Notes under the pieces: model-generated | Databases searched by the model: none | Told to the model about the DNA's origin: nothing | The model's input: only the letters and a program-made list of their open reading frames with translations | Shown here: piece by piece, positions 35,374-56,047 of the stretch | Position numbering within the stretch: position 1 is the first letter of the stretch | How the letters are laid out: each line of letters begins with the position of its first letter | Source: Actinoallomurus spadix | GTDB lineage: Bacteria > Actinomycetota > Actinomycetes > Streptosporangiales > Streptosporangiaceae | Direction of reading: 5' to 3' | Assembly (NCBI RefSeq): GCF_024055725.1 | Contig: NZ_JAMXMX010000022.1 | Location: forward strand, 62,001 to 126,000 | DNA: 64,000 bases | Translations under genes and position numbers: made by a program

Positions 35374-35389
35374 ACGAGGAGAGATCACG

Positions 35390-35608
35390 ATGACCGTTCC
35401 GGCACTGCCCGGGTGGATCAGCGCGGGCACGATCGACGGCGTGCCGCTGTGGCGGCGCGCCGGCGAGCCGGTGTACGTCGCGGCCACCGACACCGACCAG
35501 CTCGCCTTCCTCGACGCCGCGCTGGAGTGGTTCGACGAGGCGGGACCGCAGGAGTTCGCCGCGTTCGTCGAGCGAAGGGGCTTCCGGCCCGTCAGCGCGC
35601 GCCGGTGA
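35390..35608 (+). CDS. Small protein of unknown function, 72 aa
   Basis: Begins at an ATG preceded by GAGGAGAG and follows the ATPase gene by 16 bp. The sequence (GWISAGTIDGVPLWRRAGEP, then TDQLAFLDAALEWFDEAGPQ) has coding character and no recognised family. Its last codons overlap the convergent MFS gene by 17 bp. It may be a partner of the ATPase, by position only. Confidence 0.6.
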   Translation: MTVPALPGWISAGTIDGVPLWRRAGEPVYVAATDTDQLAFLDAALEWFDEAGPQEFAAFVERRGFRPVSARR

Positions 35609-37184: not shown

Positions 37185-37255
37185 GGCGTTCCTCTCATGC
37201 GGGCAGGGGGTGGCGGCGCCGGAGCAACGGACCCCGGCACCGTCGGATCGTGGGG

Positions 37256-37891: not shown

Positions 37892-37944
37892 AGGTGGTTC
37901 CTCCTCGTTCACGCTGGTCATCGTGCCGACGAGTGAGACGAAGC

Positions 37945-37969
37945 GGCAAACCTTGTTGCCGAATGGCAA
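37945..37969. promoter_or_regulatory. Operator with GGCAA/TTGCC half-sites before the XRE-cupin gene
   Basis: TTGCCGAATGGCAA (37956-37969) is a perfect inverted repeat. A third half-site GGCAA at 37945 pairs with the central TTGCC. The site lies 10-34 bp before the regulator's ATG and between it and the divergent methyltransferase. Confidence 0.65.
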
Positions 37970-37978
37970 AATGGAGGG

Positions 37979-38575: not shown

Positions 38576-38613
38576 GAAGCCGCCGGGACGGCCGGCGAGT
38601 GGTCCGGGTGACC

Positions 38614-38633
38614 GTCTAGAGCGGTCTAGAGCG
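38614..38633. repeat. Two tandem copies of GTCTAGAGCG
   Basis: A 10-bp direct repeat in the gap between the two XRE genes. It is too short to assign a role. Confidence 0.5.
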
Positions 38634-38751
38634 CTCGCCGTATGGGGCCGGAGTGCCCGTCTGGGCGAGTTTTCGGGATTCTGCTGCGCTGAGTGTTCGA
38701 AGGATCTACTCTCCGTAATAGCCATTCACGCTGGATTCAACGGGAGAGTCA

Positions 38752-39642
38752 ATGACCGCCGTACGCGCACCGCTCAACCCGAGGACGTCTCTCTGGCACA
38801 TGCTGGCCTACCTGCTCCGATGGGAGCGCGAGAAGAACGGCCTCTCACTGACCCAGTGGGGCAAGATCGCCACCGCCGCCCCCTCGACGGTCTCCAACGT
38901 CGAAGCCGGCCGCCGAAAGATCGACGAGAGGCAGGCCAAGATCATCGACCGCCACTTCCAGACCGGCGGCCTCTTCGAACTGCTCCTCTGGTACGCCCAG
39001 AGGGGCCACAACCCCGACTGGGCCCAGTCGGTCATCGGGTACGAGGCCATCGCCGGGATGATCCGGATCTACCAAGGTCAGATCATCCCTGCCCCGTTCC
39101 AGACCGAGGACTACGCGCGCGCCCTGCTGCTGGCCAGCAGTGACGTCAAGGACATCGACGAGACCCTCAAGGCCAGGATGGAGTGGCAGAGCTCCATCCT
39201 GGAGCGGCCGGATCCGCCCTACGTCTGGGCGCTGCTGGACGAGGACGTCCTGGACGACTGCATCGGCGGGCCTGAGGTCATGCAGGCACAACTCCGGTAC
39301 CTGCTCGAACTGATAAAGCGGCCGAACCTCTCCGTCCGCATCATCCCGCGCTCGGCAGGAGCACATATCGGAAAAGATGGACCTTTCCGCCTTATCAGTG
39401 TCGAAGGACGGGACATTGCCTACGCTGGAGCGGCGAGAGGCGGTCGGCTGATCGAGATGTGCGGCGAGGTCGACCAGTTCAGGCTGGACTTCGATCTGAT
39501 CGGACAGAAGGCAGCCTCCGACGACGCCTCACGCGTCCTGATCGAACGGCGATTGGAGACCACCGAGTGGCGATGCAGTGGCGCAAAAGCTCAGTTAGCA
39601 GCGCGGTCAACGACGAAGCGTGCGTCGAGGTGGCGCCGCTGA
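38752..39642 (+). CDS. XRE-family regulator with DUF5753 domain
   Basis: A 296-residue protein. The helix-turn-helix is LSLTQWGKIATAAPSTVSNV, then EAGRRKIDERQ. The DUF5753 domain runs from IRIYQGQIIPAPFQTEDYAR through MEWQSSILERPDPPYVWALL to LSVRIIPRSAGAHIGKDGPF. In actinomycetes these proteins pair with a small DUF397 protein, as here (39567-39701, overlapping). They commonly regulate development, secondary metabolism or local gene islands. It is the closest dedicated regulator to the defence genes, so it is a candidate for the shared operator; this is inference. Confidence 0.85.
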   Translation: MTAVRAPLNPRTSLWHMLAYLLRWEREKNGLSLTQWGKIATAAPSTVSNVEAGRRKIDERQAKIIDRHFQTGGLFELLLWYAQRGHNPDWAQSVIGYEAIAGMIRIYQGQIIPAPFQTEDYARALLLASSDVKDIDETLKARMEWQSSILERPDPPYVWALLDEDVLDDCIGGPEVMQAQLRYLLELIKRPNLSVRIIPRSAGAHIGKDGPFRLISVEGRDIAYAGAARGGRLIEMCGEVDQFRLDFDLIGQKAASDDASRVLIERRLETTEWRCSGAKAQLAARSTTKRASRWRR

Positions 39643-39701
39643 CCTCACAGGAGGCTGCCAGCCTGCTGGCACGAATCACAACTAACGACACCGGCTGCTG
39701 A
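39567..39701 (+). CDS. Short DUF397-like protein, partner of the XRE-DUF5753 regulator
   Basis: A 44-residue frame starting at GTG 39567 with GGAG eight bases upstream, overlapping the end of the XRE gene. It reads MQWRKSSVSSAVNDEACVEV, the canonical DUF397 start with its Cys-Val-Glu-Val core. It then departs from the family and ends after 44 residues instead of about 60. The pairing is the normal one; the shortened C-terminus may mean decay. Confidence 0.65.
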   Translation: MAMQWRKSSVSSAVNDEACVEVAPLTSQEAASLLARITTNDTGC

Positions 39702-39725
39702 CTAACACAACACCGCTTGCGCGGG

Positions 39726-39761
39726 CGACACGCGGGGTATCCGAGGATGCTCCGCGTGTCG
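39726..39761. terminator. Structured terminator-like inverted repeat
   Basis: CGACACGCGG (39726-39735) pairs perfectly with CCGCGTGTCG (39752-39761). The loop contains a second short stem ATCC-GA-GGAT. It lies between the plus-strand XRE/DUF397 genes and the convergent AAA-TOPRIM gene, where a two-way terminator is expected. Confidence 0.55.
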
Positions 39762-39892
39762 TGAATCCACGGGAATCAGGGGCCAACGGCAAGTGATGAG
39801 CGGCACCTACAACTAAGTCAGCCCTCAGAACGAGGCGTCTCTGCAGGCGGTCCCGCCGCTGGCCTGCTGACGCACGATCGACGACACCGAGG

Positions 39893-41632
39893 TCATCGCG
39901 CACGAGCACCATCAGCGCCTGCCAGTATCTTTAGAGCTATCGCAGCTACGAAATCCTTAGCATCTGACGATCGAGGAAGGTTCCTTTCGAGGACAGTACG
40001 CAACCAGACCGCCTTATTATCTGCGGAAACATCTCGATGGAATCGCTCCAACTCGCCGACCTCGACTACAAAAATACCGATCTTCCTGAGCTCTTCACAG
40101 AGGATATCGAAAGAGATAAGAGCCTGGCCGGAGAACAAGCTACGACCGTACAACTTCGCCTCCCTCCACCCGCTCGATACCCGCAAAGACTTCGATATTT
40201 CTCTAAGCTCTTTCGAACTGAGTTCGCTAGCGCTGCCAGCCTTCAGCACCATGTTGATTTCGGATTCCGCCACGGCGCGACGGACCTTCCTGGCATGGTT
40301 CCGTACCGCACTTAGAACATCGTTGCGCCGCGGTGTAAGCGCTTCGACGTCCCCACCACATGAATCGACCAGCGCATTGAAGTCCTTATCCTCTTGCAAG
40401 AAGTCAATATCGACAACACAGCACACTGGGACCTCTGCAGCACGAAGCGCTTTCACTGCTTTAGGAAGCCTATCCTTGCCTCCACAGTGCGTGAAATGAA
40501 GACTAAGAACGGACGTTGACATACCGTTCGGCAACTGCTCTAGCGAGTCAAGGACCGCTCGGTAGTACGTACAATCAGAATCCGCCTCACAGAGGACAGT
40601 ACCTTGATAGAATAGGCCACCAAGAATCCCGTAATACTTCACCAAAGGATCTTCATAAAGGTCGCGAATCGTTTGCGATGCCACCTGATAGGCGCGATTC
40701 GAGGCGGGGCCGTCGCGCACGAGGCGCACAATTGAAACGTCACGCCCCTTGGACATTCCAGAGGTCAGACCCTGAAGGATTTCCTGACTATGGGTCGCCA
40801 CGATAATCTGAACTTCATCACCACATTTTTCGCTCAACATTTTTCCGAGCAGGTAAGCCTGCGGTGGATGCAAAAACGCCTCTGGCTCATCTATGATTAG
40901 CAGCGGAAAATGTGCGGTCTCAATTGCAAGTAGTATCCCCACGAACGCCCGTATCCCATCACCTTGATCCTTCAACTCGGGCAAAGCGTTAAGCTGCTGA
41001 AGGTACTCATGCGAAGGCGGAATTGCCTCCTCCGCTGACACAGAGCCCACATGCAGGGTTATCACCGAGCCTGCATACCTGTTTACGGTAAGCGATTCAC
41101 CAAATGCGCGGGTCATTAGCTCACTGATTCGCTGTTCCAGATCTCGATCTTTGTAGAGATGCTGAGCAGGAACCACCGGCCGATCGTGGAGGAGATCAAA
41201 ACTACTGGTTTGGCCTGCCGTCATACCCAAGCGGCCTTCAGCGTTGAGATGAAGCGCGTACGCCCCTACCAGCTGACCCAGAGTTTGCGACTGTAGGAGG
41301 GCCCCGAGTTGAGGCTCCGCCACAATTTGGCCATCTATATGGTAAGCAGGCTCGAAGATTTGCCCGAATCGGGTGAGTCCTGGCTGGAGTCGTTCATACC
41401 GCTGGTGCAGCCAGTTGATCGCCTCTTCAACTGATGTCCGCGGCTCAAGCTCAATGCTTCCTATGAGCGAGGTAGGCTGCTGGCGGCCTGGCACAAAGCC
41501 GATATAGCCTTGGATTTCGCGTAGGAATAGGCTCTTCCCTGCATTATTCGGCCCTACGATCGCCGTAACGCCACTGGAAACTTCGATGACGTCGCCTGAC
41601 AGAAGCGTGATCGTCTTCAATTTTGGAAGCAT
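39893..41632 (-). CDS. OLD-family-like AAA ATPase with TOPRIM nuclease domain
   Basis: A 579-residue protein. N-terminal ABC-type ATPase: Walker A VTAIVGPNNAGKSLFLREIQ, Walker B FPLLIIDEPEAFLHPPQAYL, and VQIIVATHSQEILQ. A TOPRIM domain follows near residue 350, with VLCEADSDCTYYRAVLDSLE and the DxD strand VCCVVDIDFLQEDKDF. This is the layout of OLD-type nucleases, many of which act against phages. The gene is monocistronic and its GC is far below that of the island core, as is the adjoining end of drmMI. Confidence 0.82.
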   Translation of the reverse strand: MLPKLKTITLLSGDVIEVSSGVTAIVGPNNAGKSLFLREIQGYIGFVPGRQQPTSLIGSIELEPRTSVEEAINWLHQRYERLQPGLTRFGQIFEPAYHIDGQIVAEPQLGALLQSQTLGQLVGAYALHLNAEGRLGMTAGQTSSFDLLHDRPVVPAQHLYKDRDLEQRISELMTRAFGESLTVNRYAGSVITLHVGSVSAEEAIPPSHEYLQQLNALPELKDQGDGIRAFVGILLAIETAHFPLLIIDEPEAFLHPPQAYLLGKMLSEKCGDEVQIIVATHSQEILQGLTSGMSKGRDVSIVRLVRDGPASNRAYQVASQTIRDLYEDPLVKYYGILGGLFYQGTVLCEADSDCTYYRAVLDSLEQLPNGMSTSVLSLHFTHCGGKDRLPKAVKALRAAEVPVCCVVDIDFLQEDKDFNALVDSCGGDVEALTPRRNDVLSAVRNHARKVRRAVAESEINMVLKAGSASELSSKELREISKSLRVSSGWREAKLYGRSLFSGQALISFDILCEELRKIGIFVVEVGELERFHRDVSADNKAVWLRTVLERNLPRSSDAKDFVAAIALKILAGADGARAR

Positions 41633-41804
41633 AGCCTAAGAATATTACAAAACCCGCTCTGGTGATACAGAATCGCGGAGCGATCCGTTAGCGAGACAGC
41701 AGAACCTCAACCACACCTGACCCTTAGCGCCAAGGCACGGTTGGCACACGGGCCTGTTCGGTGAGGACGCCCTCTTGGGCAGCGATCACCACTGCGATAG
41801 TCGT

Positions 41805-41818
41805 CCCGGCAAGCCGGG
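41805..41818. repeat. Palindrome CCCGGCAAGCCGGG, also at 54342-54355
   Basis: The same 14-mer occurs twice in the window, both times in non-coding DNA of the defence island. Each forms a 6-bp stem with an AA loop. Confidence 0.6.
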
Positions 41819-41862
41819 CACTCTACCGGCAGTACTCATGTACATGCTTCCTATAGCGCTAC

Positions 41863-41881
41863 CCGTACGCACAGCGTACGG
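41863..41881. promoter_or_regulatory. Inverted repeat CCGTACGC-ACA-GCGTACGG
   Basis: Perfect 8-bp arms with a 3-bp centre, 230 bp upstream of the OLD-like gene. It is a possible operator, but which gene it serves is unclear. Confidence 0.5.
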
Positions 41882-41975
41882 TAACTCGCGAGCTGGCTGC
41901 GATACTGCCTCAACAGTGGATCGTCCTGCCCATCGGACCTCCTTTGTGGAGCTAGCTTCCTGATTCTGAGCTTCC

Positions 41976-44900
41976 TCAAAAAATGGTGTCTTGTTCAGCT
42001 GAAGCTAGACGACCTCTTGAGGACGGAGCATTCCTTTTATCGTGGAGGCCGGCGGCGACCTCGGCGGCGTAGCGCTCGTGGTTCAGTTCGAGCAGACGAT
42101 CAACGATCTCGCGCTGCACGGCCGGACCGACCGTGAAGCGAACTTCTCGGCCGACAGGATGCATACCGTGATTCAACTGCGGGATTAGGTCTTCCCAGCC
42201 GTAGGCCCAGCAGACCGCCTCATCGATCGCTTTGTGAACACTTCGCAGTTGTTCGATGCCCGCATCGTGGCACTCCTTATTGTTTACTGAGTTATACATA
42301 TCCGTCAACCCAATGCCACTCCCATTATTGCAGGACAACGCCACCTCCTGCCGGATCACATCGAGGCGTTCTCCCAATTCTCGCATCTCCTGAGTGAGCC
42401 CAGGCAGCGGCATTGTTTCGAAGACGTCCGATGGCGTATAACGAAGCCTAGTCTCTAGCGTCGATGCCCGCCCGATTGCCCACCAATAGTGCGGTGCGCT
42501 GCTGAGCAGCGCCAACATCGCCATATCATCCGTTGCGAATACGACAATTGAATCGCTGATTACCTGATCTTTCCGTATCCTTACAGGCATGACCACCTTA
42601 CTTACGCGAGTGAGGGCGATCACGTGGTCCAGGTCAGCGGAGGCTTGTCGCATTTCGGGCCGCTGCCGGAAGAACTGCCACCAATAGCGGCGCCCGAATT
42701 CATCCTTCTGACGAAGTCGCTCCGACTTTACAGTGCGAACGACGTGCTCAAAACACAAAGAGTAGCTCTGCGATTTCTCAAGGGACCAATCTCGGAAGTT
42801 TATAACGTAACGACTAGCCGAGCAGTCTGGACGGGAATTCAAATCCTGTCCACTAAGATAGGGTTCCAATACCTCCTTGTTGCGAGGATCTTTAGCGATC
42901 AATTCAGCTGCGACTGCGGGATCCAGAACGAATCCGGATCCCATAACATACTGCCCAATGAAGGAAATATTTGCATTTGCAAGAAGGCGCTCCGGGTTCC
43001 CGCTTACCCTGGAAACAGGATCCAGGGACGGCGTTATTCCGGGAACCTGCGCACCATCTGCAATGAACTCGGCCTCGGGACCGACAGGCGCCCCACTTGT
43101 CCAGACAGCACAGTATTCCAACACTGCGGACTTTGAAGGCCAGGGACGACTTTTGATAGACCTCCGTATAGTGGTTCCCCTTTCGACGAGCTGATCCAGC
43201 CCAACTTCGCGGGTATCACCCTGCGCAAGACTATTCGTTGCGAGCAAGCCGACCTGGCCATTCGCGCCAAGTACCTCATGAGCCCGCAAGACAAAGTAGG
43301 CGACCAAGTCAGCGTGTCCTCTTTCACCTCTTCCGACGACCTCGACCAGCCACTCCCGGTATGCCGCTCCTGTTGCGCCGCTGATCTTCTTCCCACCAAG
43401 GAATGGTGGATTGCCGACAACAGCGTCGAAGCCAGGACCGCGCGGGTTACGGTAATCGAAGACCTCCGGAAAGAGCAACGGCCAGTGGAACGGATCACGT
43501 TCGAAGCCACCTGCGGGGAGATCCGTCTGCAGCAACATTCGAGCCTGATCCCAAGCCGCCAATTCTGCAATCCATCTACTTCCGCCACCGCCCTGCATGC
43601 TCCTGCGGTCGCTGAGAAGCTTCGCGGCGGCCCTCAGAGCTTGGCCTGATGCGTTATCGAGGGCGTTGCCACCTTTGCGTATGTAAGCAAGGGCGGTGCC
43701 GACACAGAGGTCGGCGATGACACGAGTCGATTCGGACTTTCTTTCGACCTCGGCGAGGACTTTGCGCTTCTTGGCAAGGCCTTCCAACGTTGTGCCGTCG
43801 ATCTCCGTTAGGCGGCGGCGGTCTTCGGCCAGTTCGGCGACCAGCTCGCGGAGGCCGGCGGTGAGGTCGAAGAGCTTGTCGTCGCCCTTGTGCAGCTCCC
43901 GGCCGCGCACGGGGTCCATGTGGAGGACTTCGAGCTGCTCCAAGGACGTGATGCCGAGCAGGGAGTCGCCGGCGATGAGGCGGTCGTCGAGGAACGTGAA
44001 CGGGCGCTGCGGGTCCATGGACACCAGCCACAGCGAGAGCTTGGCCATCTCGACGGCCATCGGGTTGATGTCGACGCCGTACAGGCAGTGCTCGATGATC
44101 TGCCGGCGCGCCTTGATGATGAGCGGGTCGTCCTCAGCGTCCAGGGCGGCGTCGGTGCGCTTGGACGTGTAGGCGAGGGCCTCTTCGTCGCCCTCGCGGG
44201 ACCAGGCCTCCACGAGGTGGCCGGCGAGGTAGCGGCAGGCGGCGACGAGGAACGCCGCCGAACCCATCGCGATGTCGGCGACCTTCAGCGACAGAATCTC
44301 CTGCGACGACTTGGGCTTCCACTCGTCCTTGTTCGCGGTCTGCAGCGGCCCCGGCTCGTACACGAGAGGTTCGAGGGCGCCTTCGACGACCTGTTCGGCG
44401 AGGAAGCGCGGCGTGTAGTGGGTGCCGGTGTTCTTGCGGAGCGAGGACTCGGTGACGTACAGCGCGTCGGTGAGGATGACGACGGGCAGGTCCCGCAGGT
44501 CCGTGCGGATGATGCCGTAGAACGGCAGCAGCCGCCGGGTCAGCGGGTAGTCGCCGCCGGTGACGGCGAGGAGCTTGCGTTCGGCCTCCTGCTCGTCGAC
44601 GCCGGCCGGCGGGGCGAGGCGCTTGGTGAGGGCGGCGGCCGATCCGATCTTGGAGTCCTTGTACGCGGCGGCGAGGCGGGCGGCGAGGGCCTCGGTGGAG
44701 CCGGCGGCCTCGGCGTGCTCTTCGAGCTCCCGCAGCGGCACCTCCTCCTCGTACCCCTCCTTGCCGATGAGGCCGACGACGGTCTCCTGGGCGTGGAAGC
44801 CCTCGAAGGACAGCAGGCCCTCGTAGACGTACCCGATCTCCTCGACGTCGAGGGTGCGGAAGGACAGCTTGCGGCGTTCGCGGTTGCGGCCGGTGCCGAT

Positions 44901-46060: not shown

Positions 46061-49000
46061 CTACTGTGCCTCTCGCTCTGGTACGACGAAGATGATCGCC
46101 ACGGGGAAGGAGTGCGACCGGGGGTCGGCGTATCGCGCGTCGATCTGCTCCAGCTCCCGGTCGCGGTCGCTCTGCAGCCGTCGCAGGCGCTCCTCCCAGG
46201 ACCTGCGGTCCCGATGGTATTGCGCGATCTCGTCCTTGCTGCGCGCCTCGATGGCGGAGAACAGGGTGTCCTCCTCCTCATCGCCCCGGGCGATCTGGGC
46301 GCTCAGGCTCGCGGCGAACTGCTCCAGGTTCGCGGTGATGCGCTCCCGCTCGGCCGTACGGCGCTGGTCGAGCTTGCGTTGCAGCGACTCGCGGCGGGCG
46401 GCCGTACGCCACTCGATCGCGCCGGTGAGGCCGTCGCGGACGCGGGCGGACTCCCAGCGGTCGGCGAGGATGCCCTGGATGCGGGGCGTGGCCTCGCGGC
46501 CGTTGGTCAGGGCGCGGTCGAGGAGGTCGCCGAGGCGGCCGACGCTCTCCCAGCGGCGGAACCGGCCGGTCGGCGGCGCCCAGCCGCCCGCGTGCAGGAC
46601 CTCTTCGTGCAGGCGTACGCCGTCGGCGCCGACCAGCACGAATCGGGAGTACGCGCCGACGAGCACGGTCTCCAGCTCCGGGTCGTCGCTGATCACGGCG
46701 GCGACGCGGTGCAGGCCGATCTCGTCGTTGGAGACGGCGGCGCGCAGCAGGCGGGTGGACATCGCGACGAGCGGGTGGCCGAGGTGGGCGAGGACGACAT
46801 CGTCGCGGCCCCGGGCGACCCGCTGGTCGAACGTCACCGGCCGCTGCTTCGGCTGCTCGCCGGGGGCGGGCAGCTTCTCCCACAGCCCGGCGGACGCGCG
46901 CTCCCACGAGCCGGTGAGGGTCGGCACCTCGTACAGCGGGTCGACGTCGACCGCGGGTTTCAGCGGCTGCTGACGGGCCAGGTCGAGCGCGGTGTCGACG
47001 ACGCGCTTGACGGCCGGGGGCGTGATGCGCAGCTCGGCGACGGTCTTGTCCAGCTCGGCGCGGAGCCTGCGGACCTGCTCGCCGACGTCGGATTCGGCGG
47101 GAACGTTCCCGCCGCGCGTACGGCCACGGCCGGCGTTCTCCACGTCGAAGTCGTCGATCTGGCCGGTGAGCCGGCGCTGCACGGCGTCGGCGAGGACGGC
47201 GTTGACCGCGCCGAGGTCCTCCTCCATCTGCGCGACCTTGCGGGCCACCCGCGACAGGAACTCCAGGTCCGCCTCGTACGAGTCGACGGCCTCGCCCCAG
47301 CCCGTACCGACGAAGTGCCGGATCTGCGGGGTCTCGCGCTGGCCGTACCGGTCGATGCGGCCGATCCGCTGCTCCAGCTTGTTCGGATTGAACGGAATGT
47401 CGTAGTTGACCAGCCGGTGGCAGTGGTTCTGCAGGTCGATGCCCTCGCTGGCCGCGTCGGTGGCCAGCAGGATGCGGACCGGGTGCTCGCCCGGGTCCTT
47501 CTGGAACGCCAGCCGCAGGCGCTCGCGGGCCTCGGCGGTCATGCCGCCGTCGAGCTCGGCGACGCGGTCGCCGCCCATACCCTCGCTGCGCAGCAGCTCG
47601 CGCAGCCAGTCCTTGGTGTCGCGGTACTCGGTGAAGACGATGACGCGCTCGTTCGTCCAGTGCCTCCCGTCGGGGATGCAGACGGACCGCAGGTAGGAGA
47701 TGAGCTCCCTGGCCTTGGCGTCCGGCTGCGCCTCGTGGGCGTCGGCCCAGTCCTTCATCCGCTGGAGCAGGCTCAGCTCGTCGGCCTCCTCCTCAACGAG
47801 CGGGCGCGTACGGGCGAGGGCGTCGTGCTCGGCCTCCTCCAGGGCCTCGTCGTCGAGAGTGGCGGTCTCGTCGAAGAAGTCGTCGAGCCAGTCGTCGTCC
47901 GCGGGCGCGACGGCCTTCCCCTTCGCGGTGAGGGTGTCGGCGTAGACGGCGATGGTCTGGCCGAAGGCGTACGGGCTGGAGAACAGGCGCTTCTTCAGCA
48001 GCAGCGTCACCAGGTCGGCGGCCTTGCGGCCCCGCGTCTGGTTCAGCCGCCGGCGGCGCGCGTCGGCGAAGTCCTTGAGCAGCCCGTGGATCTCGCGCTC
48101 GTCCTCCGGGTACGCGACGGGGATCGCCTTCGCGTCGCGCTGCGGGAACAGCGGCCGGCCGCCGGCGTCCTTGATCTGCCGCTTCAGCCGGCGTACGACG
48201 ACGTCCTCGACCGCGCTCCGGTCCGGCTCGACGCCGCGCGCGAACCGCTGGTCGTCGAGGATCTCCAGCAGTGCGGTGAACGACGCCTGATAGCCGTTGT
48301 GCGGGGTCGCCGACAGGAACAGGCGGTGCGTGAAGTGCGGGGCGAGGCGCCGGATCAGCTTCGTCTGCTGGGAGTCGACGGCGTACACCTGCTTCGGCGC
48401 GGCCGGGGCGACGTGATGCGCCTCGTCGAGGATCAGCAGGTCGAACGTGCGGGGGTACGTCGGGCCGTCCGGCGGCAGCACCTCATCGAGCAGGCGCTGC
48501 GCCTTGGGCCCGCGCAGCCACGGCAGCGACACGATCGCCAAGGGGTAGACCTCGAACGGGTTGGCCGCCGAACCGTGCGTACGGCGCACCTCCGCGCAGC
48601 GCTCCGAATCGATGATCGTGAAGTCCAGGCCGAACTTGTCGGCCATCTCGTCGCGCCACTTCACGGTCAGGCCCGCCGGACAGACGATCAACACCTTGCG
48701 GCCCCGGTGCCGCAGCAGGAGCTCCTGGGCGACGAGACCCGCCTCGACGGTCTTGCCGAGACCGACGTCGTCGGCGAGCAGCAGGTTCACGCGGGGCGCG
48801 TCGACGGCGCGGGCGACCGGCTCGAGCTGGTAGTCCTCGATCGCGACGCCGGACCGGAACGGCGCCTGCAGCGTCTTCACGTCGGCGGACGTCACCGCCG
48901 ACCAGCGGATCGCGTCCAGGAACGCGGCCAGCCGCTCCGGTGAGTCGAAACCGTCCCGGGTGATCTGAGGCAGGGAGCCGCTCGGGAGCGTACGGCGGCC

Positions 49001-49204
49001 GGGCTCGACCTCCCAGATGACCGACAGCGTCTCGCCGTACCGGCCGTCCTCGACGCTCTGCAGCGTGATTCGGGTGCTGCGCGCGGCGGGTTCGACGTCG
49101 CTTACGACCCAGCGCTGACCGCGCACTTGCACGAGAGAGCCTTCGGCGGGCAGTTCGGCGGTCGGCGTCGGCACGTCTCTCCTCGGGTCCGGGGGATCGG
49201 ACAT
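46061..49204 (-). CDS. drmD: DISARM class 1 SNF2-like helicase DrmD
   Basis: A 1047-residue SNF2/SF2 helicase. Walker A is LLADDVGLGKTVEAGLVAQE, the DEAH box is LLILDEAHHVAPAAPK, motif III is RLFLSATPHNGYQ, and the C-terminal helicase motifs are TDAASEGIDLQNHCHRLVNY and KLEQRIGRIDRYGQ. A charged coiled-coil tail follows (RTAERERITANLEQFAASLS). It immediately precedes drmMI, the class 1 DISARM order. The ATG at 49204 is chosen over a GTG at 49279 because residues before it are unlike the family. It is divergent from the ASCH-GTPase gene across an operator. Confidence 0.9.
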   Translation of the reverse strand: MSDPPDPRRDVPTPTAELPAEGSLVQVRGQRWVVSDVEPAARSTRITLQSVEDGRYGETLSVIWEVEPGRRTLPSGSLPQITRDGFDSPERLAAFLDAIRWSAVTSADVKTLQAPFRSGVAIEDYQLEPVARAVDAPRVNLLLADDVGLGKTVEAGLVAQELLLRHRGRKVLIVCPAGLTVKWRDEMADKFGLDFTIIDSERCAEVRRTHGSAANPFEVYPLAIVSLPWLRGPKAQRLLDEVLPPDGPTYPRTFDLLILDEAHHVAPAAPKQVYAVDSQQTKLIRRLAPHFTHRLFLSATPHNGYQASFTALLEILDDQRFARGVEPDRSAVEDVVVRRLKRQIKDAGGRPLFPQRDAKAIPVAYPEDEREIHGLLKDFADARRRRLNQTRGRKAADLVTLLLKKRLFSSPYAFGQTIAVYADTLTAKGKAVAPADDDWLDDFFDETATLDDEALEEAEHDALARTRPLVEEEADELSLLQRMKDWADAHEAQPDAKARELISYLRSVCIPDGRHWTNERVIVFTEYRDTKDWLRELLRSEGMGGDRVAELDGGMTAEARERLRLAFQKDPGEHPVRILLATDAASEGIDLQNHCHRLVNYDIPFNPNKLEQRIGRIDRYGQRETPQIRHFVGTGWGEAVDSYEADLEFLSRVARKVAQMEEDLGAVNAVLADAVQRRLTGQIDDFDVENAGRGRTRGGNVPAESDVGEQVRRLRAELDKTVAELRITPPAVKRVVDTALDLARQQPLKPAVDVDPLYEVPTLTGSWERASAGLWEKLPAPGEQPKQRPVTFDQRVARGRDDVVLAHLGHPLVAMSTRLLRAAVSNDEIGLHRVAAVISDDPELETVLVGAYSRFVLVGADGVRLHEEVLHAGGWAPPTGRFRRWESVGRLGDLLDRALTNGREATPRIQGILADRWESARVRDGLTGAIEWRTAARRESLQRKLDQRRTAERERITANLEQFAASLSAQIARGDEEEDTLFSAIEARSKDEIAQYHRDRRSWEERLRRLQSDRDRELEQIDARYADPRSHSFPVAIIFVVPEREAQ

Positions 49205-49493
49205 TCCTAGCGCATGTGCATCGCGCCGCCCAGCAGGCGGCCGGTGCCGGACACGCCCGGGCGCGCGCCCGTCGCACACCGTAGACCACTGGGGCTTGTG
49301 CGTCCACGGTCGTCTTATTCGTGAGTACGGCTACTTGGACTTCTCTTGTGTACCGGATACACATCTGATCTACTGACGGTGGTCGATCGGTTCGCCAAGG
49401 CAACCGTTAGCGTTGCTCACGCGTCCCATGAACACCAGCCCTCCGGCATCTTCCCCCGTCGCCCCCTGGGCGCTGTTCCGATGAGGATGTGAC
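49205..49493. other. Divergent control region between drmD and the ASCH-GTPase gene
   Basis: A 289-bp gap containing the operator-promoter at 49346-49374. The drmD promoter must also lie here but I cannot place its -35 and -10 boxes. Confidence 0.5.
49346..49374 (+). promoter_or_regulatory. Promoter with perfect TGTGTA-N5-TACACA operator
   Basis: TTGTGT (49346-49351), a 17-bp spacer and TCTACT (49369-49374) form a sigma-70-like promoter reading toward the ASCH-GTPase gene. The palindrome TGTGTACCGGATACACA (49347-49363) overlaps the -35 box and most of the spacer, a classic repressor position. The same design recurs at 54428-54456. Confidence 0.65.
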
Positions 49494-51965
49494 GTGTCCG
49501 CACCCACCTGGGCCCTGACCGTTCCCCAGCCCGCCGCATGGGCGATCGCCCACGGGTACCAGGACGTCTACAACCGCCCCTTCTCGACCGACGTCCGCGG
49601 ATGGATCGCGATCTGCGCGGGCGCGGCGGTGGACACCGAACTCATGCACCTGACGTCCCGGTTGACCGGACGGACACCGGAAGAGATCGCCGAGGCATCC
49701 CCCGAACGCTCCATGGTCGTCGCGGTCGCGAGGCTGGTCGACGTCTGCGACGACGAGGCGTGCGAGTGCGGGCCCTGGGCCAACAAGCGGTTCATTCACT
49801 GGCGAATCGCGGACGCCATCCTCCTCCCCGAACCCGTACCGGCACCGCACATCTTCGGAATCTGGAAGATGTCCGACGAACTCGCGGCGCGGGTGACACA
49901 CCAATGGGAACTCGCCGCGGCGCGCGCGGCCGAGCAGCCTGCCGCGGAAGAGCGGAAGGACTCCCTCGCCCTTCGCGACCGGCTCCTGCCGCTGCCGGGA
50001 CCGGCGGAGAGCTACCGCCACGTCCTGCTGCTTGGAACGACGGGGGCAGGGAAGACCACGGTCATCCGCCAGTTGCTCGGCACCGACCCCGAGACCGAGC
50101 GGTTCCCCTCCACGTCCTCGGCGAAGACCACCGTCGCCGACACCGAACTCATCCTGACCGGTGACCGGCGCTTCCAAGCCGCAGTGACCTTCGCCGACCG
50201 GGACGAGATCGCCGACCACCTCCGGGACAACGTCTGGGAGGCGGCGAAGGCGGTGTTCGAAGGGCGACCGGAGCCGACCGTCTACGACAAGCTCCTCGAC
50301 CACATCAGCCAGCGGTTCCGGTTCAGCTACATACTCGGCCGCCCGTCGCCCCCGAGGGCGGCCGGTGATCTCGACGACCTCGACGACCTCGAGGCCTTGG
50401 ACGATGACGAGCTTCTGGAGACCGCTTCCGGCGACGCCCCTGGAGAAAACGGGACGCCGGCGGACACGACCACGGCAGAGATGATCCAGGAGGTCGTCGA
50501 GGCCATCCAACACCTGGTGAACACCCAGGTGAGCGTGGTCCAGACCGAGATCACGGCAAGCGACAAGGAACGGCCCCGCGAGGAGGTCATCGAGGACGAG
50601 CTGGAGAACCGCGTCCGACGTTCGGTGATCTGCGAGAAGGTCGTCGAGGCTCTGCTCGGCGCCATCGAGAAGCGCTTCTCCCTCCTCACCGCGGGTGAGC
50701 TGCAGCGCGACTCGAACGGCTGGCCCGTGAGCTGGACCTGGGGAACGGACGACCGCGCCGAGTTCCTGAACGTCATCACCAGATTCTCCAGCAACCAGGC
50801 CGCCTTCTTCGGCACCCTACTGACCCCCCTCGTGAACGGCATCCGGGTGTCCGGACCGTTCCGGCCACTGTGGCGGGACTCCGACGCGCGCCTGGTACTC
50901 ATCGACGGCGAGGGCATGGGACACGTCCAGGAGTCCGCGACCGAGGTCTCCACCCGTGTCCGCAAGCGCCTGGACGACGTCGACGCGATCGTCCTCGTCG
51001 ACAACGCCGCCCAGCCGATGCAGGCCGCCCCGGTCGCGATCATGCGGACGGCGGCCGCGACCGGCAACGGGGACAAGCTGCACTTCCTGTTCACCCACCT
51101 CGATCTGGTCAAGGGCGACAACATCCGGACGGTCACCGACCAGAAACGCCATGTCCTCGAGTCCGCCGAGAACGTCTTGAACGCGGTCCGCGCGGACCTC
51201 GGGGTCGCCGAGCGGGTCCTACGCCGTCAGCTGTACGACGCCTCCTACTTCGTCGGCGGCATCCAGGGGCGGATCGACCTGCGACGGCTCGATCCGACCC
51301 GCCCCAGGGACAAGGCCCCTCTGCGCACCTCCAGAGAACTCGTCGCGCTGATGGACGCGCTGACCGCCGACACGGTCGAGATGGAGGTCGGGCCCGCGCG
51401 TCCCGTCTACAAAAGTGCGGACCTGACCCGGACCGTCGCCGAGGCCGCAGGCGTCTTCCACCGCCTCTGGGACGGCATGCTCGGACTGTCGTACGACCCT
51501 GAGGTCAAGAAACAGCATTGGGCGACCATCAAGGCGCTCACCCGTCGCCTGTCGGAGGGCCGTACGGACGAGTACCGGGACCTACGGCCTGCGGCGAGCC
51601 TGCGCACCTATCTGGAGACCAGGCTCTACCTGCTGATCCAGAAGCCGGTGCGCTGGACCGGGGCTCAGCCGGAGCCCGAGGAACAACAGGTCGTCTTCGA
51701 CCGGATCTCGCAGGCCGTCACCAAGCGGCTGGTCAAACTCATCGATCGGATGATCACCGAGGAGCCGCACGCGGACTGGCTACGCGCCTACGAGGAGTAC
51801 GGAAAGGGCTCGACGATTCGCAGAGCGCAGATCCTGGCCACGGACATCTACACCCACGCCGTCCCCCGTCCGGGTCTCTCCGACGCCTACGACAACCCAT
51901 TCGCCCAGGCGGTGTACGCGGCGTTCGCGGAGGTCGCCGCGGAGCAGGACCTTCTACTCGAGTGA
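49494..51965 (+). CDS. ASCH-domain fused to a P-loop GTPase-like protein
   Basis: An 823-residue protein. Residues 1-110 look like an ASCH domain (WALTVPQPAAWAIAHGYQDV, then RGWIAICAG), a fold that binds RNA or modified nucleotides. A P-loop, LLLGTTGAGKTTVIRQLLG, lies near residue 180. The G3-like motif LVLIDGEGMGHVQES is near 465 and the G4-like FTHLD near 540, so about 280 residues, including an Asp/Glu-rich stretch, are inserted between them. The C-terminus is helical. The GTG start has GAGGA six bases upstream. A DUF3987-like gene follows after 23 bp. I know of no described system with this fusion; a defence role is inferred from location. Confidence 0.75.
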   Translation: MSAPTWALTVPQPAAWAIAHGYQDVYNRPFSTDVRGWIAICAGAAVDTELMHLTSRLTGRTPEEIAEASPERSMVVAVARLVDVCDDEACECGPWANKRFIHWRIADAILLPEPVPAPHIFGIWKMSDELAARVTHQWELAAARAAEQPAAEERKDSLALRDRLLPLPGPAESYRHVLLLGTTGAGKTTVIRQLLGTDPETERFPSTSSAKTTVADTELILTGDRRFQAAVTFADRDEIADHLRDNVWEAAKAVFEGRPEPTVYDKLLDHISQRFRFSYILGRPSPPRAAGDLDDLDDLEALDDDELLETASGDAPGENGTPADTTTAEMIQEVVEAIQHLVNTQVSVVQTEITASDKERPREEVIEDELENRVRRSVICEKVVEALLGAIEKRFSLLTAGELQRDSNGWPVSWTWGTDDRAEFLNVITRFSSNQAAFFGTLLTPLVNGIRVSGPFRPLWRDSDARLVLIDGEGMGHVQESATEVSTRVRKRLDDVDAIVLVDNAAQPMQAAPVAIMRTAAATGNGDKLHFLFTHLDLVKGDNIRTVTDQKRHVLESAENVLNAVRADLGVAERVLRRQLYDASYFVGGIQGRIDLRRLDPTRPRDKAPLRTSRELVALMDALTADTVEMEVGPARPVYKSADLTRTVAEAAGVFHRLWDGMLGLSYDPEVKKQHWATIKALTRRLSEGRTDEYRDLRPAASLRTYLETRLYLLIQKPVRWTGAQPEPEEQQVVFDRISQAVTKRLVKLIDRMITEEPHADWLRAYEEYGKGSTIRRAQILATDIYTHAVPRPGLSDAYDNPFAQAVYAAFAEVAAEQDLLLE

Positions 51966-51988
51966 GCAAACGAAGAGAAGGCCACGGC

Positions 51989-53722
51989 ATGTTCCACTTC
52001 CTCGATGGTGAGGAGGAGAGCCGGTGGGGCGCCGACCCGGTGCTGGACGCCGGATCGGGAGAGAAGGCATTCCGGCGCTGGGCGGAAGGCGTCGTCGCGG
52101 CCGACCCGGCGAGCCTGCTGGCCACGCTCCGGGCCGACCGCCCGATACCGGGCTGGGCCAAGGTCATGTTCCTGGACGCCGAACCCGCCCACGCGGGATT
52201 CCTCGACGCCGCCTACCGCCGCCGGCTGGAACGACGCGCAAGTCCGACGCGACCGTCCGCACCCGAGGCCGTCCAGGCCGACAGGCCCGAGCCCACGCGC
52301 AGCGGCCCGGGGCCGGTTCGCACCCGTCAGGACGAGCGGGAGACAGTGGCCGCGCCGGCGAGCGGCTGGTACACGCTCGAACGCCCGGGGCCGCTTCCGG
52401 ACGAAGCCATGTTCGACGGATTGCCGGGCCGGGTCGTACGCGAGATCCACCCGTACACCGAAGGTGATCCCGTCGGCGTCCTGGCGACCCTCCTGTCGGC
52501 GTTCTCGGCCGCCGCCGGGCGCGGCCCGCACGTCGCCATCGGCTCGACCCGCCATCCCCTGCTGGTCTGGACGATGCTCATCGGGCGGACGGCGCTGGGC
52601 CGCAAGGGGACGGCCACGAACGCCGCGATGGAGATCTTCGAGCGGGTCTCCCCGGAGTTCACCGAACGCCATCTGCTGTACGGATCGCCCTCCTCCGGCG
52701 CCGGGCTGGTCGGCAAGCTGGAGGCCATGGCCCGGGAGGCGGGCTGGTACGAGGACGGCGACCCGCTCGACGACGAGCCGGAGGTGCGCCCGGGCTTCCC
52801 CGCTCTGATGATCGAGGAAGAGTGGGCGAAGGTGATGCGGCGCTCGCGCATCGACGACGCGCTCGGCCAGAACCTGCGCACCGCGTGGCAGGGCAACACG
52901 CTGTCGGTGATCGTGAAGCGGAAGGCCGACTGCGCCACCGTGAAGAAGGCCCACGTCGCGATCGTCGGCCACATCACCCCAGACGAGTTCCGCGGCAACC
53001 TGTCGGCGGCGGACGTCGCCGGCGGCACCTTCAACCGCTTCCTGCCGGTCTTCGTTCAGCGCTGCCAGTCGCTGCCACTCGCCGACGAGATGCCCGAGGC
53101 CACCGCCGACCGGCTCGCGGGCGAACTACGGGCCGCCGTCACCCGCGCCCGGTCCGTCGGCCGGATCGGCTTCGACGACGCGGCACGTGCCTACTGGACG
53201 GACCACCTCTACGACCGGCTCACCGGCCTGTCGACCGGCTCCGAGCTCATCGAGTCGTTCGCGGGCCGCGCGGTGCCCTACGCCAAGCGCATCGCCGCCC
53301 TGTACGCCCTCGCCGACGAGGAGTCCTCGATCTCGCGGAGCCACCTACGGAGGGCCGAGGCCTTCGTCACGTACGTCATCGACTCCGTCGAGTACATCAT
53401 GGCCACGGGCACGGCGCGGACCGTACGCAAGGGCCGGCCCGACGCGGCGAACCCGCACCTCACGCGGAAGGTGATCGAGGCCCTCGTCGGCGCGTATCCC
53501 GCCCCGCTCTCCCGCTCGGATCTCCTAGCCAAGATCAAGAACTTCGGCACGAGCACCGACCTGGACAACTCACTCGCGTCCCTGGACGGTGACCTCCAGA
53601 CCTCGGTGTCCCGCGCCGGCAGCGGCCGTCCGACCCACCTCTACCGGCTCACCGAAGCGGCCGCCACCCGCCTCACCCCGCCCGCTCAGCGCTCTCCCAG
53701 CGATCCGCACGGGCAATGGTAG
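51989..53722 (+). CDS. DUF3987-like P-loop ATPase
   Basis: A 577-residue protein. After a short N-terminal domain and a Pro-rich linker, a nucleotide-binding domain has a Walker A-like loop (IGRTALGRKGTATNAAMEIF, near residue 198) and Walker B ALMIEEEWAKVM near 272, then TAWQGNTLSVIVKRKADCAT. This resembles DUF3987 proteins, related to phage helicase/primase ATPases. The C-terminus carries a winged-helix-like segment (LVGAYPAPLSRSDLLAKIKN). The ATG has AAGG seven bases upstream and sits 23 bp after the ASCH-GTPase stop, so they form an operon. Confidence 0.72.
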   Translation: MFHFLDGEEESRWGADPVLDAGSGEKAFRRWAEGVVAADPASLLATLRADRPIPGWAKVMFLDAEPAHAGFLDAAYRRRLERRASPTRPSAPEAVQADRPEPTRSGPGPVRTRQDERETVAAPASGWYTLERPGPLPDEAMFDGLPGRVVREIHPYTEGDPVGVLATLLSAFSAAAGRGPHVAIGSTRHPLLVWTMLIGRTALGRKGTATNAAMEIFERVSPEFTERHLLYGSPSSGAGLVGKLEAMAREAGWYEDGDPLDDEPEVRPGFPALMIEEEWAKVMRRSRIDDALGQNLRTAWQGNTLSVIVKRKADCATVKKAHVAIVGHITPDEFRGNLSAADVAGGTFNRFLPVFVQRCQSLPLADEMPEATADRLAGELRAAVTRARSVGRIGFDDAARAYWTDHLYDRLTGLSTGSELIESFAGRAVPYAKRIAALYALADEESSISRSHLRRAEAFVTYVIDSVEYIMATGTARTVRKGRPDAANPHLTRKVIEALVGAYPAPLSRSDLLAKIKNFGTSTDLDNSLASLDGDLQTSVSRAGSGRPTHLYRLTEAAATRLTPPAQRSPSDPHGQW

Positions 53723-53729
53723 AAATCGA

Positions 53730-54140
53730 TCAGCCGCAGTGCGACCAGCCGGACGCCCATTGAATGCCTTCCGCGAAACCACCCCATGAAATGCACGTGT
53801 GCGCGGCGCTGAGTTTCACCGGTCCGGCGTAGTAATAGTAATAGCCGCCGTCGGGAGCCGACACGAGGTCGCTCTGCCGATCGATGTGCACTCGAAGGTC
53901 GTATCTCTTGGTCCCGGTCGGGTTCCTCACCCAGGTGACGGCGCAGTTGGACGACCCGTTGTAGAACAGGTAGATGTCGGCCACCGTGCCCAGCGCGTGG
54001 TGATCGATCTGGTAATAACCGCTGCCGCACGCACCGCTCGGCGTCGTGGCCGCTTCGGCCGGAACGGTCACGGACACCATTCCCGCGGCCAAACCCAGAC
54101 CGCTGAGCGCGAGTGCCATCATCCGCTTTGACTTGCTCAT
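53730..54140 (-). CDS. Secreted spore-associated protein A-like protein
   Basis: A 136-residue exported protein. The signal peptide is MSKSKRMMALALSGLGLAAG and continues to a cleavage site near AEA|ATTPS. The mature part has four Cys (ACGSGYY, SSNCAVTW, HTCISWG, WSHC) that could form two disulphides, and YYYYYAGPVKLSAAHTCISW. This matches the spore-associated protein A pattern known in Streptomyces. The ATG at 54140 has GGAG upstream. It is convergent with the DUF3987 gene, 7 bp apart, and seems unrelated to defence. Confidence 0.75.
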   Translation of the reverse strand: MSKSKRMMALALSGLGLAAGMVSVTVPAEAATTPSGACGSGYYQIDHHALGTVADIYLFYNGSSNCAVTWVRNPTGTKRYDLRVHIDRQSDLVSAPDGGYYYYYAGPVKLSAAHTCISWGGFAEGIQWASGWSHCG

Positions 54141-54245
54141 GAGACTCCGTTTCGTGCGTCCCTGTCCCAACTGCCGTAGGCACGGTAGCAGCGACCAAGA
54201 TCACCTCGCTACGGGCGCCTGCGGCGGTGCCAGGTGGTCCGATCG

Positions 54246-54299
54246 CGTCCAGCGCCGAGGGTGTTCGTCGTTTCGAGGACTGAGACCCTCGGCGTACGC
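54246..54299. repeat. Dispersed hairpin element, copy 1
   Basis: CGCCGAGGGT (54253-54262) and ACCCTCGGCG (54285-54294) form a 10-bp stem. The about 54-bp element, including the loop start GTTCGTCGTT, recurs at 57865-57918 with about four in five bases conserved. Confidence 0.6.
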
Positions 54300-54341
54300 C
54301 ATCGGCCTCGTCAGCCACCGATTTCGGGCCGCCTTCGCCAC

Positions 54342-54355
54342 CCCGGCAAGCCGGG
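54342..54355. repeat. Palindrome CCCGGCAAGCCGGG, second copy
   Basis: Identical to 41805-41818; a 6-bp stem hairpin in non-coding DNA upstream of the RNase H promoter. Confidence 0.6.
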
Positions 54356-54427
54356 ATTCGTGCCGGTCACACCCCTGAGCCCCGCCACGCGCCAGAAGTC
54401 GCCGTGAGTTCCGTACACCGAACTATC

Positions 54428-54456
54428 TTGTGTACTGAATACACGTGTGGTCTACT
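54428..54456 (+). promoter_or_regulatory. Promoter with TGTGTA-N5-TACACG operator
   Basis: TTGTGT (54428-54433), a 17-bp spacer and TCTACT (54451-54456) repeat the layout at 49346-49374 base for base in both boxes. The embedded palindrome is TGTGTACTGAATACACG (54429-54445). It reads toward the RNase H-like gene, whose ATG is about 60 bp downstream. Confidence 0.65.
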
Positions 54457-54518
54457 GGCTGATGTCGCAACCGACGATTTTGACCACTGCCGTCCGTTGC
54501 ATCCCGGATGGAGTCCTC

Positions 54519-55382
54519 ATGTCCTCCCCTCTCATGCGCCCCGACGAGTTCGAACGCGCCGTGCTCCAACTCCCGGCCGACCTGCGGGAGCGGGCACGCC
54601 GGATCCGCGCCTGCGTGCTCCGCGACGACGGCTGCCCGTACTGCCGTATCGCGGGCCGTTCGCTGGACCTCGCCTTCCGCGCCGCGCTCTACGACCAGCA
54701 CGACTGGGCGCGCGTCCTCGTCGCCGAGGCCGAGTCCTACGCGGACGCCGACCGCCACGCCGGGTCATGCGCCCGGCGTAGGCCTACCTTCGCGCCGGCG
54801 ACTCAGGTCTGGCGGGGCGTCCACCGGCAGGTCACCCGGTGGGCGGACACGGCACCCGTGATCGCGGCCACCGACGCGAGCTGGAAGAAGGACGCGGGCG
54901 GCCTGGGCTACATCACGACCGACGGCCGGTGGGGCTACCGCGGCCGGACCACGGACCGGAACGACCCGACCGGACCGGCCAAGGTGCTCGTCAGCGAACT
55001 GCGCGCCGTCCACCTGCTGCTCTCGGCCATCGAAGACGTCCCCGAATTCCTGCTACTCGTCGACAGCCGCCGCGCGCTCACGTTCCTGCGGACGTGGCAG
55101 TGCGGCCGGACCGACGTGATGCCCGAGGGGTACGACCTGCGCCCGCGCCGGTCCGGCGCGCCGGCGCTCGTACGGCTCGCCGAGCGCGTCGCCGCCCTCC
55201 CCGGCCTCCGCATGGAGCACGTCAAAGGGCACTCCGGCCACCCGCTCAACGAGGCCGCCGACTCACTGGCCAAGATCGCGCGGCGGCGGATGACCGAGCC
55301 GTTCGACGCGGTCGGCCGCGCCGCCGATCTCGCGGCGTCCTTCCTGCTCACCTGGCACCAGCAGGCCGCGGTCGCGGCCTGA
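54519..55382 (+). CDS. RNase HI-like protein with Cys-containing N-terminal domain
   Basis: A 287-residue protein. The C-terminal two thirds are an RNase H fold with all four expected acidic residues: Asp in VIAATDASWKKDAGG, Glu in VLVSELRAVHLLL, Asp in FLLLVDSRRALTFL, and Asp in LNEAADSLAKIARR after HVKGHSGHP. This supports cleavage of RNA in RNA-DNA hybrids or a related nuclease activity. The N-terminal about 100 residues are helical with CVLRDDGCPYCRIAG. GGAG lies five bases before the ATG. It is driven by the same promoter type as the ASCH-GTPase unit, suggesting a role in that defence response. Confidence 0.8.
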   Translation: MSSPLMRPDEFERAVLQLPADLRERARRIRACVLRDDGCPYCRIAGRSLDLAFRAALYDQHDWARVLVAEAESYADADRHAGSCARRRPTFAPATQVWRGVHRQVTRWADTAPVIAATDASWKKDAGGLGYITTDGRWGYRGRTTDRNDPTGPAKVLVSELRAVHLLLSAIEDVPEFLLLVDSRRALTFLRTWQCGRTDVMPEGYDLRPRRSGAPALVRLAERVAALPGLRMEHVKGHSGHPLNEAADSLAKIARRRMTEPFDAVGRAADLAASFLLTWHQQAAVAA

Positions 55383-55408: not shown

Positions 55409-56047
55409 ATGCATCCCCAGCCCGGCCCCTACCTGCCTCCGCCTCCGAAGAAGAACTCCGCCGCGAAGGGCTGCCTCATCGCCGCGGCCGCCGGATTCGG
55501 CGGCCTGGTCCTCATCGGCGCGATCGGCGCCGCCGTCGGCGGCGCGGGGGACTCCGGTTCGGCCGCCACTCCCCCGGCCGCCGCGTCCGCTCCGCAGCAC
55601 TCCACGACCGCGGAGCCGGCGAAGAAGCAGGCCAAGAAGCCCGTGGTGAACGGGATCGGCCGCGAGTACCGCGACGGGAAGTTCGCCTTCACCGTCACCA
55701 AGGTCAAGAAGGGTGTACGGCGCGTCGGCAACGAGTACGTCGGCCGTACCGCACAGGGCCGGTTCGTCCTCGTGTACGTGACCGTGGTCAACATTGGGAA
55801 GGAGGCGCGCACCTTCGACAGCAGCTCACAGAAGCTCACCGACACCGAAGGCCGGCAGTTCGACGCCGACAGCGAGGCGACCATCGTCATGGGCGACGAG
55901 AGCAAGGCGTTCTTGGAGAACATCAACCCCGGCAACGGCGTTCACGGGATCCTCGTCTTCGACCTACCGGCCGGGGTCAGCCTCAAGTCGCTCGAACTCC
56001 ACGACTCCCCCTTCTCCGGTGGCGTGAAGGTCCCGCTGCACTCGTGA
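55409..56047 (+). CDS. Membrane-anchored DUF4352 protein
   Basis: A 212-residue protein. A Pro-rich cytoplasmic N-terminus (PQPGPYLPPPPKKNSAAKG) is followed by one hydrophobic helix (CLIAAAAGFGGLVLIGAIGA), a Ser/Ala/Pro linker and a DUF4352 immunoglobulin-like domain (FAFTVTKVKKGVRRVGNEYV, then GRFVLVYVTVVNIGKEARTF). Such domains sit outside the cell and bind ligands or proteins. It begins 26 bp after the RNase H gene with GAGGAG upstream, so it may be co-transcribed. Confidence 0.82.
   Translation: MHPQPGPYLPPPPKKNSAAKGCLIAAAAGFGGLVLIGAIGAAVGGAGDSGSAATPPAAASAPQHSTTAEPAKKQAKKPVVNGIGREYRDGKFAFTVTKVKKGVRRVGNEYVGRTAQGRFVLVYVTVVNIGKEARTFDSSSQKLTDTEGRQFDADSEATIVMGDESKAFLENINPGNGVHGILVFDLPAGVSLKSLELHDSPFSGGVKVPLHS

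Follow-up and report, generated by a model that had tools for sequence, protein, structure and literature searches.

A probably soluble dynamin-superfamily GTPase with an ASCH head in a defence island of Actinoallomurus spadix

We analyzed a stretch of 64,000 nt of Actinoallomurus spadix contig NZ_JAMXMX010000022.1 (forward-strand positions 62,001–126,000; hereafter the window), in which a gene for a large GTPase headed by an ASCH domain (gene 1; 49494–51965, + strand, GTG start, 823 amino acids) is followed after 23 bp by a gene for a DUF3987 protein on the same strand (gene 2; 51989–53722, + strand, ATG start, 577 amino acids). Divergent to gene 1 lies drmD (46061–49279, – strand; PADLOC DrmD, 1428 bits), a gene of the defence island system associated with restriction-modification (DISARM), and PADLOC bears out the placement of gene 1 in a defence island. 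An earlier note on this DNA had described the ASCH-GTPase, the DUF3987 gene 23 bp on, the divergent drmD and a shared palindrome, and this observation as a whole is confirmed. Its interpretation stands with respect to the ASCH head, the GTPase, the island setting and the palindrome, and is not supported with respect to a two-gene system. The note overlooked the dynamin-like core of gene 1, what looks like a late replacement of another head by ASCH, and an operator characteristic of many family members that carry the usual head. Loci of relatives are given below by labels beginning with L.

The product of gene 1 consists of the ASCH head (residues 1–155; 49494–49958, + strand) and a dynamin-like GTPase core that starts at about residue 155 (residues 156–823; 49959–51965, + strand) and is assigned by motifs, a structure model and fold matches. 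The core contains the P-loop GTTGAGKT at residues 181–188 (G1), a G2 region at T212/T213, DGEG at 471–474 (G3) and a G4-like THLD at 534–537, and its C-terminal portion is helical. Across an alignment of 46 sequences G181, G186, K187, D471 and G474 are invariant, and thus G1 (GxxxxGK[ST]) and G3 (DxxG) are intact; G3 is set apart from the G2 region by a large conserved insertion, and G4 takes the form THxD, with T534, H535 and D537 each found in at least 90% of the sequences. The latter motif does not agree with the dynamin consensus [TN]KxD (TKxD), of which related GTPases show variants. About 280 residues had been noted from G1 to G3, and 282 were counted. The combination of an ASCH head and a large GTPase is borne out by these motifs and by the ASCH family matches given below, and, as the note had said, no known model identifies gene 1 in PADLOC, Pfam or NCBIfam.

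In the structure model 501 of the 823 residues, almost all within the core, have a predicted local distance difference test value (pLDDT) of at least 90. Foldseek found 13 PDB chains at E≤0.001, every one of the dynamin superfamily, including SynDLP (1.6e-7), a bacterial dynamin pair, MxB (1.5e-4), MFN2, IniA, BDLP, DNM1L and Fzo1. The top ranks of a VIA comparison are mitofusins, IniA, Fzo1 and EHD proteins at Z 15–17, with Z 17.3 for mitofusin 1 (243 residues) and 16.7 for IniA (315 residues), and BDLP follows at 14.6 (383 residues); the alignments to IniA and BDLP extend through the region of the helical stalk or bundle to residue 820, though at a root-mean-square deviation of 6–7. A search of a viral library with the full model gave one match at E≤0.001, a Catovirus dynamin-domain protein. 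The fold class is that of the dynamin superfamily, and different heads are found on one core.

Dynamins are known as membrane-bending machines. No hydrophobic segment was found in the gene 1 product, whose maximum 19-residue Kyte-Doolittle mean is 1.11, and means above 1.6 occur in three of 87 family members (L083, 2.22; L079, 1.78; L098, 1.67). Judging from the model and this profile, gene 1 probably encodes a soluble dynamin relative. One of the three members, a very distant relative of 974 amino acids from Aureivirga (L083:164–3088), has its hydrophobic segment near residue 785 and may bridge this family and the membrane dynamins. When compared with the bacterial dynamin-like proteins SynDLP, BDLP and IniA, with which DynA is grouped although the G-domain comparison did not cover DynA itself, gene 1 shares a predicted dynamin-type G domain with intact G1 and G3, but differs in the big insertion before G3, in THxD instead of TKxD and in lacking a hydrophobic segment; in addition, most members of its family carry a head of nucleic-acid type. 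Mx proteins, the vertebrate dynamins with an antiviral role, are similar to gene 1 in the fold match to MxB and in the antiviral role proposed here; no sequence relation between them is shown, and we know of no Mx protein with an ASCH or integrase-like head.

The usual head of the family is not ASCH. A domain of about 95 residues with the order beta-beta-beta-alpha takes its place in 54 of 69 scored non-redundant loci, where scoring was by profile and covered loci with a readable G1 motif; L041, L043 and L056 all have this head by profile. It is predicted as three strands followed by helices. At E≤1, 19 of 48 members match DUF6538, a domain that heads integrases, with a best value of 4.9e-4; by this weak match and by the order of its elements the head bears a weak resemblance to the DUF6538/arm-type DNA-binding domains of integrases. 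All six strong matches to the usual head in a plasmid collection sit in records holding this GTPase, and DUF6538 gave one weak match among 60 actinomycete genomes. The usual head is probably DNA-binding.

Many headed genes have GTTGTTCC half-sites upstream, arranged in tandem ahead of a TTGAC box and again as an inverted tandem directly before the start codon. At least two strict sites were found in 35 of 54 headed, none of 12 headless and none of three ASCH loci (non-redundant; 0 of 15 without the usual head), searched over 170 bp for headed and ASCH loci and up to 700 bp for headless ones (Fisher p 3.3e-6, uncorrected for ancestry). Control stretches further upstream held a site, a single one, in one of 243 cases. 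With a looser motif, scored in loci with a recognisable head start, at least two half-sites were found in 42 of 51 loci and the full layout in 21. Neighbouring half-sites are spaced by 10–11 bp in 61 of 63 pairs, about one helical turn, which would suit protein units lined up along a single face of the DNA. Of the 21 full-layout loci, 20 have TTGAC 14–18 bp from where the last forward half-site starts. Three loci (L064, L065 and L066) have variant upstream repeats, GTGTTCC or TTGTTCC; perhaps head and site co-evolved there. The association of head and sites is a computational result, from which we infer binding of the GTTGTTCC sites by the usual head and autorepression.

The same layout was searched for in viral DNA. 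The first form of the pattern was found in 22 stretches, four of which had a family member behind them, among them L119, which was found by the DNA pattern alone, had been missed by the protein scan and encodes a divergent member of the family. A pattern with learned spacing was found in 29 stretches, 15 of them with a headed gene; the inverted pair is also present in 14 of the 29, and a headed gene lies behind all 14, L119 being the only headed case among the other 15. Among exact matches in the viral collection, the full layout occurs before headed genes only.

The ASCH assignment of the gene 1 head was to be checked by profile, as the earlier note had proposed, and it holds for members of the head alignment and for the alignment profile, but not for the single sequence. 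Taken singly, residues 1–155 of the window protein find no Pfam model at E≤1 and thus do not reach PF04266, while four of nine members of the head alignment match PF04266 (best 9.1e-6), the profile of this alignment matches human ASC-1 ASCH structures (3.2e-5), and residues 6–155 match phrog_3193 (1.6e-21). The head is 58% identical to those of L023 and L024, the two other ASCH-GTPase loci. Its non-fused relatives are ASCH-type proteins from Streptomyces plasmids, from Gordonia and mycobacterial phages and from genomes of the same family. Among the matches listed, the ASCH proteins of actinophages and Streptomyces plasmids (phrog_3193) align with residues 2–137 at about 30–41% identity; the alignment is confined to the head, and in the window ASCH heads a GTPase. 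PMC7641849 describes the PUA/ASCH superfamily as one that binds nucleic acids, and for some ASCH domains it gives a predicted binding of modified bases.

In a quick tree of 65 cores, which carries a long-branch warning naming L040 and L048 among others, the three ASCH rows form one group (Shimodaira-Hasegawa-like approximate likelihood ratio test support, 100), nested in a set of 11 rows (support 97) with six headed and two headless members. No GTTGTTCC half-sites were found at the three ASCH loci. The tree and the site counts suggest that ASCH replaced the usual head, probably once, in an Actinomadura lineage (the window, L023 and L024), and one head replacement accompanied by absence of the half-sites is the simplest reading.

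The family is widespread and sparse. With gene 1 as the single query, a scan of genome contigs gave no match, and of the 20 records listed in a plasmid search, the first 11 match solely from residue 154–165 onward and the other nine match the head only. An alignment query found 62 loci in species genomes (L084 covers just 40 residues) and 16 in viral contigs, and the record titles name Actinomycetota, Pseudomonadota, Cyanobacteriota, Bacillota, Chloroflexota and other phyla. Among 396 genomes sampled in the phylum, with three candidates scored per genome, a single one, the window's own, has a member, so this sample yields no independent set. Near-identical loci were excluded by a list chosen by eye, 14 in the head, site and flank counts and 22 (near-copies and partial loci) in the tree. 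The GTPase family has no Pfam model. Searches of open PubMed Central gave no paper on DUF6538, on arm-type or AP2-like domains with a GTPase, or on bacterial dynamin-like proteins with "binds DNA"; judging by titles and the starts of abstracts among the matches listed, the family is undescribed under dynamin, ASCH and phage or defence topics, and the matches listed for the half-sites are unrelated by title. In another genome of the same family (L012), a stretch of 35 residues shares 63% identity with the P-loop region and is possibly a fragment.

A conserved partner for the whole family was considered and rejected: in a clustering of flank genes of 87 loci, no cluster except the GTPase itself occurs in more than 10 non-redundant loci, and annotated neighbours vary. 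Of 73 loci, 13 are flanked by genes resembling type I restriction-modification systems, where the identity of the cluster comes mainly from the annotation of L014 and the background rate is uncontrolled. Next to L029 lies a gene for an SduA-like protein, and next to L037 one for a Z1-domain protein. In Caballeronia (L018:9722–13955) the GTPase gene is followed by genes for a patatin phospholipase and a nucleotidyltransferase, resembling a cyclic-oligonucleotide-based antiphage signalling system (CBASS), and on Agrobacterium and Rhizobium plasmids (L019:6372–10448, also L022) by a gene, 12 bp on, for a protein of 598 amino acids without a Pfam match, nitrilase-like by reading.

At the window itself the palindrome TGTGTACCGGATACACA (49347–49363, + strand) precedes the GTPase start by about 130 bp, a second copy, TGTGTACTGAATACAC (54429–54444, + strand), precedes an RNase H-like gene, and a third, weaker copy with two mismatches (30645–30660, – strand) lies 45–60 bp upstream of the drmA open reading frame (ORF) start on the drmA strand. 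The pattern TGTGTACYGRATACAC is free of mismatches at the first two places. With up to three mismatches there are four matches (one being a site on its other strand) against a mean of 0.34 in shuffled sequences, and four were reached in none of 100 shuffles; in the 8.0-Mb genome four places have at most two mismatches, three of them in the window. The operator that the note had held to be common to island genes is thus found again, as the form TGTGTAC..G.ATACAC, before gene 1, before the RNase H-like/DUF4352 gene pair and, weaker, before drmA, and this sequence pattern may mean that gene 1 is linked to DISARM through regulation. A search for sigma-70-like sites across 49270–54520 gave none. 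DISARM adjoins gene 1, and neither gene 1 nor gene 2 matches a DISARM model; among defence models the best match of gene 1 is mad8 (9.3e-5, P-loop only), and gene 2 has none.

The island also contains drmMI, drmA, drmB, HEC-01A, HEC-01B, a kinase similar to PD-T4-6/mad6 and a type I-like methyltransferase. A separator of about 9 kb (32583–41976), holding genes for a major facilitator superfamily transporter (35592–37496) and an OLD-like ATPase (39893–41632), parts drmA/drmB, HEC-01A/B, the kinase and the methyltransferase from drmD/drmMI. Several neighbours recur at the ASCH loci. The DUF4352 gene (55409–56047, + strand; apparent N-terminal membrane segment by reading) is present at all three, and in L023 and L024 it immediately precedes the ASCH-GTPase gene. 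The RNase H-like gene, presumed to belong to the same regulon (54519–55382, + strand; start approximate, mechanical ORF from 54447), is present at two, lying two genes upstream of the ASCH-GTPase in L024. Relatives of the Ser/Thr kinase gene (20562–22145, – strand) and of the N6 DNA methyltransferase gene (22149–24014, – strand) are found near the ASCH-GTPase at all three, in the window about 25–29 kb away, and the DUF3987 gene at one.

The likeliest role of gene 1 is that of a dynamin-type switch that senses nucleic acid and belongs to defence islands; its nucleic acid target, its defence role and assembly as its output are what we infer from head, fold and setting. Put in full, gene 1 would encode a soluble GTPase of the dynamin superfamily that binds nucleic acid through its head, represses its own gene in the usual form and assembles on the nucleic acid it recognises, and we hold the chances of this full account to be evenly balanced. 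The protein would mostly act on its own, with no fixed partner. Where the usual head is present, this small domain would bind the tandem GTTGTTCC half-sites flanking the gene's own promoter and thereby repress it; engagement of the protein at another place, such as on foreign nucleic acid, would let the promoter open. In the lineage of the window an ASCH domain of the actinophage and Streptomyces-plasmid kind would have taken the place of the usual head; the half-sites are absent there, and the gene lies behind the palindrome that also precedes drmA. Recognition of nucleic acid by the head would lead to GTP-driven assembly, by which the recognised nucleic acid would be blocked or sequestered. 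A broader idea, which we put forward tentatively, is that the family represents a dynamin branch that works on nucleic acid and not on membrane, with GTP-switched assembly on tandem sites (or, with ASCH, on foreign or modified nucleic acid), self-control, a block of invader DNA and heads that are exchanged.

Several observations weigh against this account. Whole-protein template modelling scores to dynamins are low (0.14–0.26 by query length in 13 rows) and the same VIA list contains translation GTPases up to Z 14.6, hence the dynamin match is carried by the G domain; the model is poor over the ASCH head (pLDDT blocks of 38–76, with 38–65 over residues 1–130). The usual head has no significant match to a solved DNA-binding domain by PDB profile, Foldseek or VIA, where its best AP2 row, WRINKLED1, reaches Z 3.6, beneath unrelated rows reaching 5.9. 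Fewer than two strict sites occur in 19 of 54 headed loci, and fewer than two half-sites of the looser motif in nine of 51. When corrected for ancestry, the association of head and sites is not significant (six independent pairs, a mean of 3.5 pointing the expected way, 0 opposed, median sign-test p 0.125; at least one strict site counted as presence here, at least two in the locus counts). L119 lacks the inverted pair in its scored form, and all 14 full-layout viral contigs, several of them near-copies, were already among the 16 found by protein; they are therefore not 14 new cases, and L119 is the single new one. A search for the palindrome in L023 and L024 gave no match. Nearest neighbours are often metabolic genes, and no defence model matches more than three of 111 of them, so that the link to defence is by island, not by partner.

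The dedicated two-gene defence system of the earlier note, ASCH-GTPase plus DUF3987 protein, agrees with the common strand, the gap of 23 bp and the location in the island, but a relative of gene 2 was found in only one of the 87 GTPase loci, the window's own (TBLASTN and a profile of five relatives, gene 2 itself included), and in neither L023 nor L024, with flanks of uneven extent as some contigs are short. This is the outcome of the neighbourhood survey that the note had proposed. Relatives of gene 2 sit elsewhere, the two closest ones surveyed (L131 and L133) amid phage-like genes, with tail-fibre-like and amidase-like genes in their surroundings, and two others (L134 and L135) beside transporter-like genes, all by reading. 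We therefore reject the pair as a system: gene 2 is probably not a conserved partner of the GTPase, and a dedicated system at this locus is improbable. The DUF3987 label itself is sound (PF13148, 3.3e-17, 63.2 bits against a cut-off of 27; phage DNA primase families match weakly), while the noted ATPase label is uncertain, as the P-loop-like stretch GRTALGRKGT, identified by reading, departs from GxxxxGK[ST]. We consider it very improbable that the ASCH head is an enzyme, a single-stranded RNA nuclease or an N4-acylcytidine amidohydrolase, under a GTPase switch. ASCH proteins with such activities are known (PMC5615036, PMC6972931), but where YqfB has Lys21-Thr24-Arg26, of which the Lys and the Thr are catalytic, the window protein has Gln23-Tyr26-Arg28 at the same spacing, and the Lys and the Thr are missing from L023 and L024 as well (by reading). 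Since these residues are not kept, a binding role of the head appears more likely from its sequence than an amidohydrolase.

A membrane-guarding dynamin with a purely regulatory head would be in line with the fold of gene 1 and with the DUF4352 gene near all three ASCH-type genes, whose window copy has the apparent membrane segment. Bacterial dynamins can protect from phage, Bacillus DynA delaying the lysis of infected cells at the membrane, as stated in PMC8844932. The lack of a hydrophobic segment in the window protein, the rarity of such segments in the family and the resemblance of its heads to nucleic-acid binders make this role for gene 1 rather doubtful. It is also unlikely that the GTPase is a housekeeping switch of plasmids and islands, engaged in copy control, maintenance or transfer, with the defence neighbours as a by-product of mobility: occurrence on plasmids and in viral-collection contigs, sporadic distribution, DNA-linked regulation and a phage-integrase domain in three of 111 nearest neighbours would fit such a switch, but restriction or other defence genes flank part of the genome loci, and the window copy has its palindrome in common with drmA, if in weaker form there.

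A nucleic-acid-sensing dynamin-type switch would add an unnamed gene to those worth watching in defence islands. The family spans many phyla, has an apparently soluble dynamin-like core, a head that probably binds DNA and an operator whose geometry is fixed, and shows a natural exchange of heads; together these features make dynamin action on nucleic acid directly testable.

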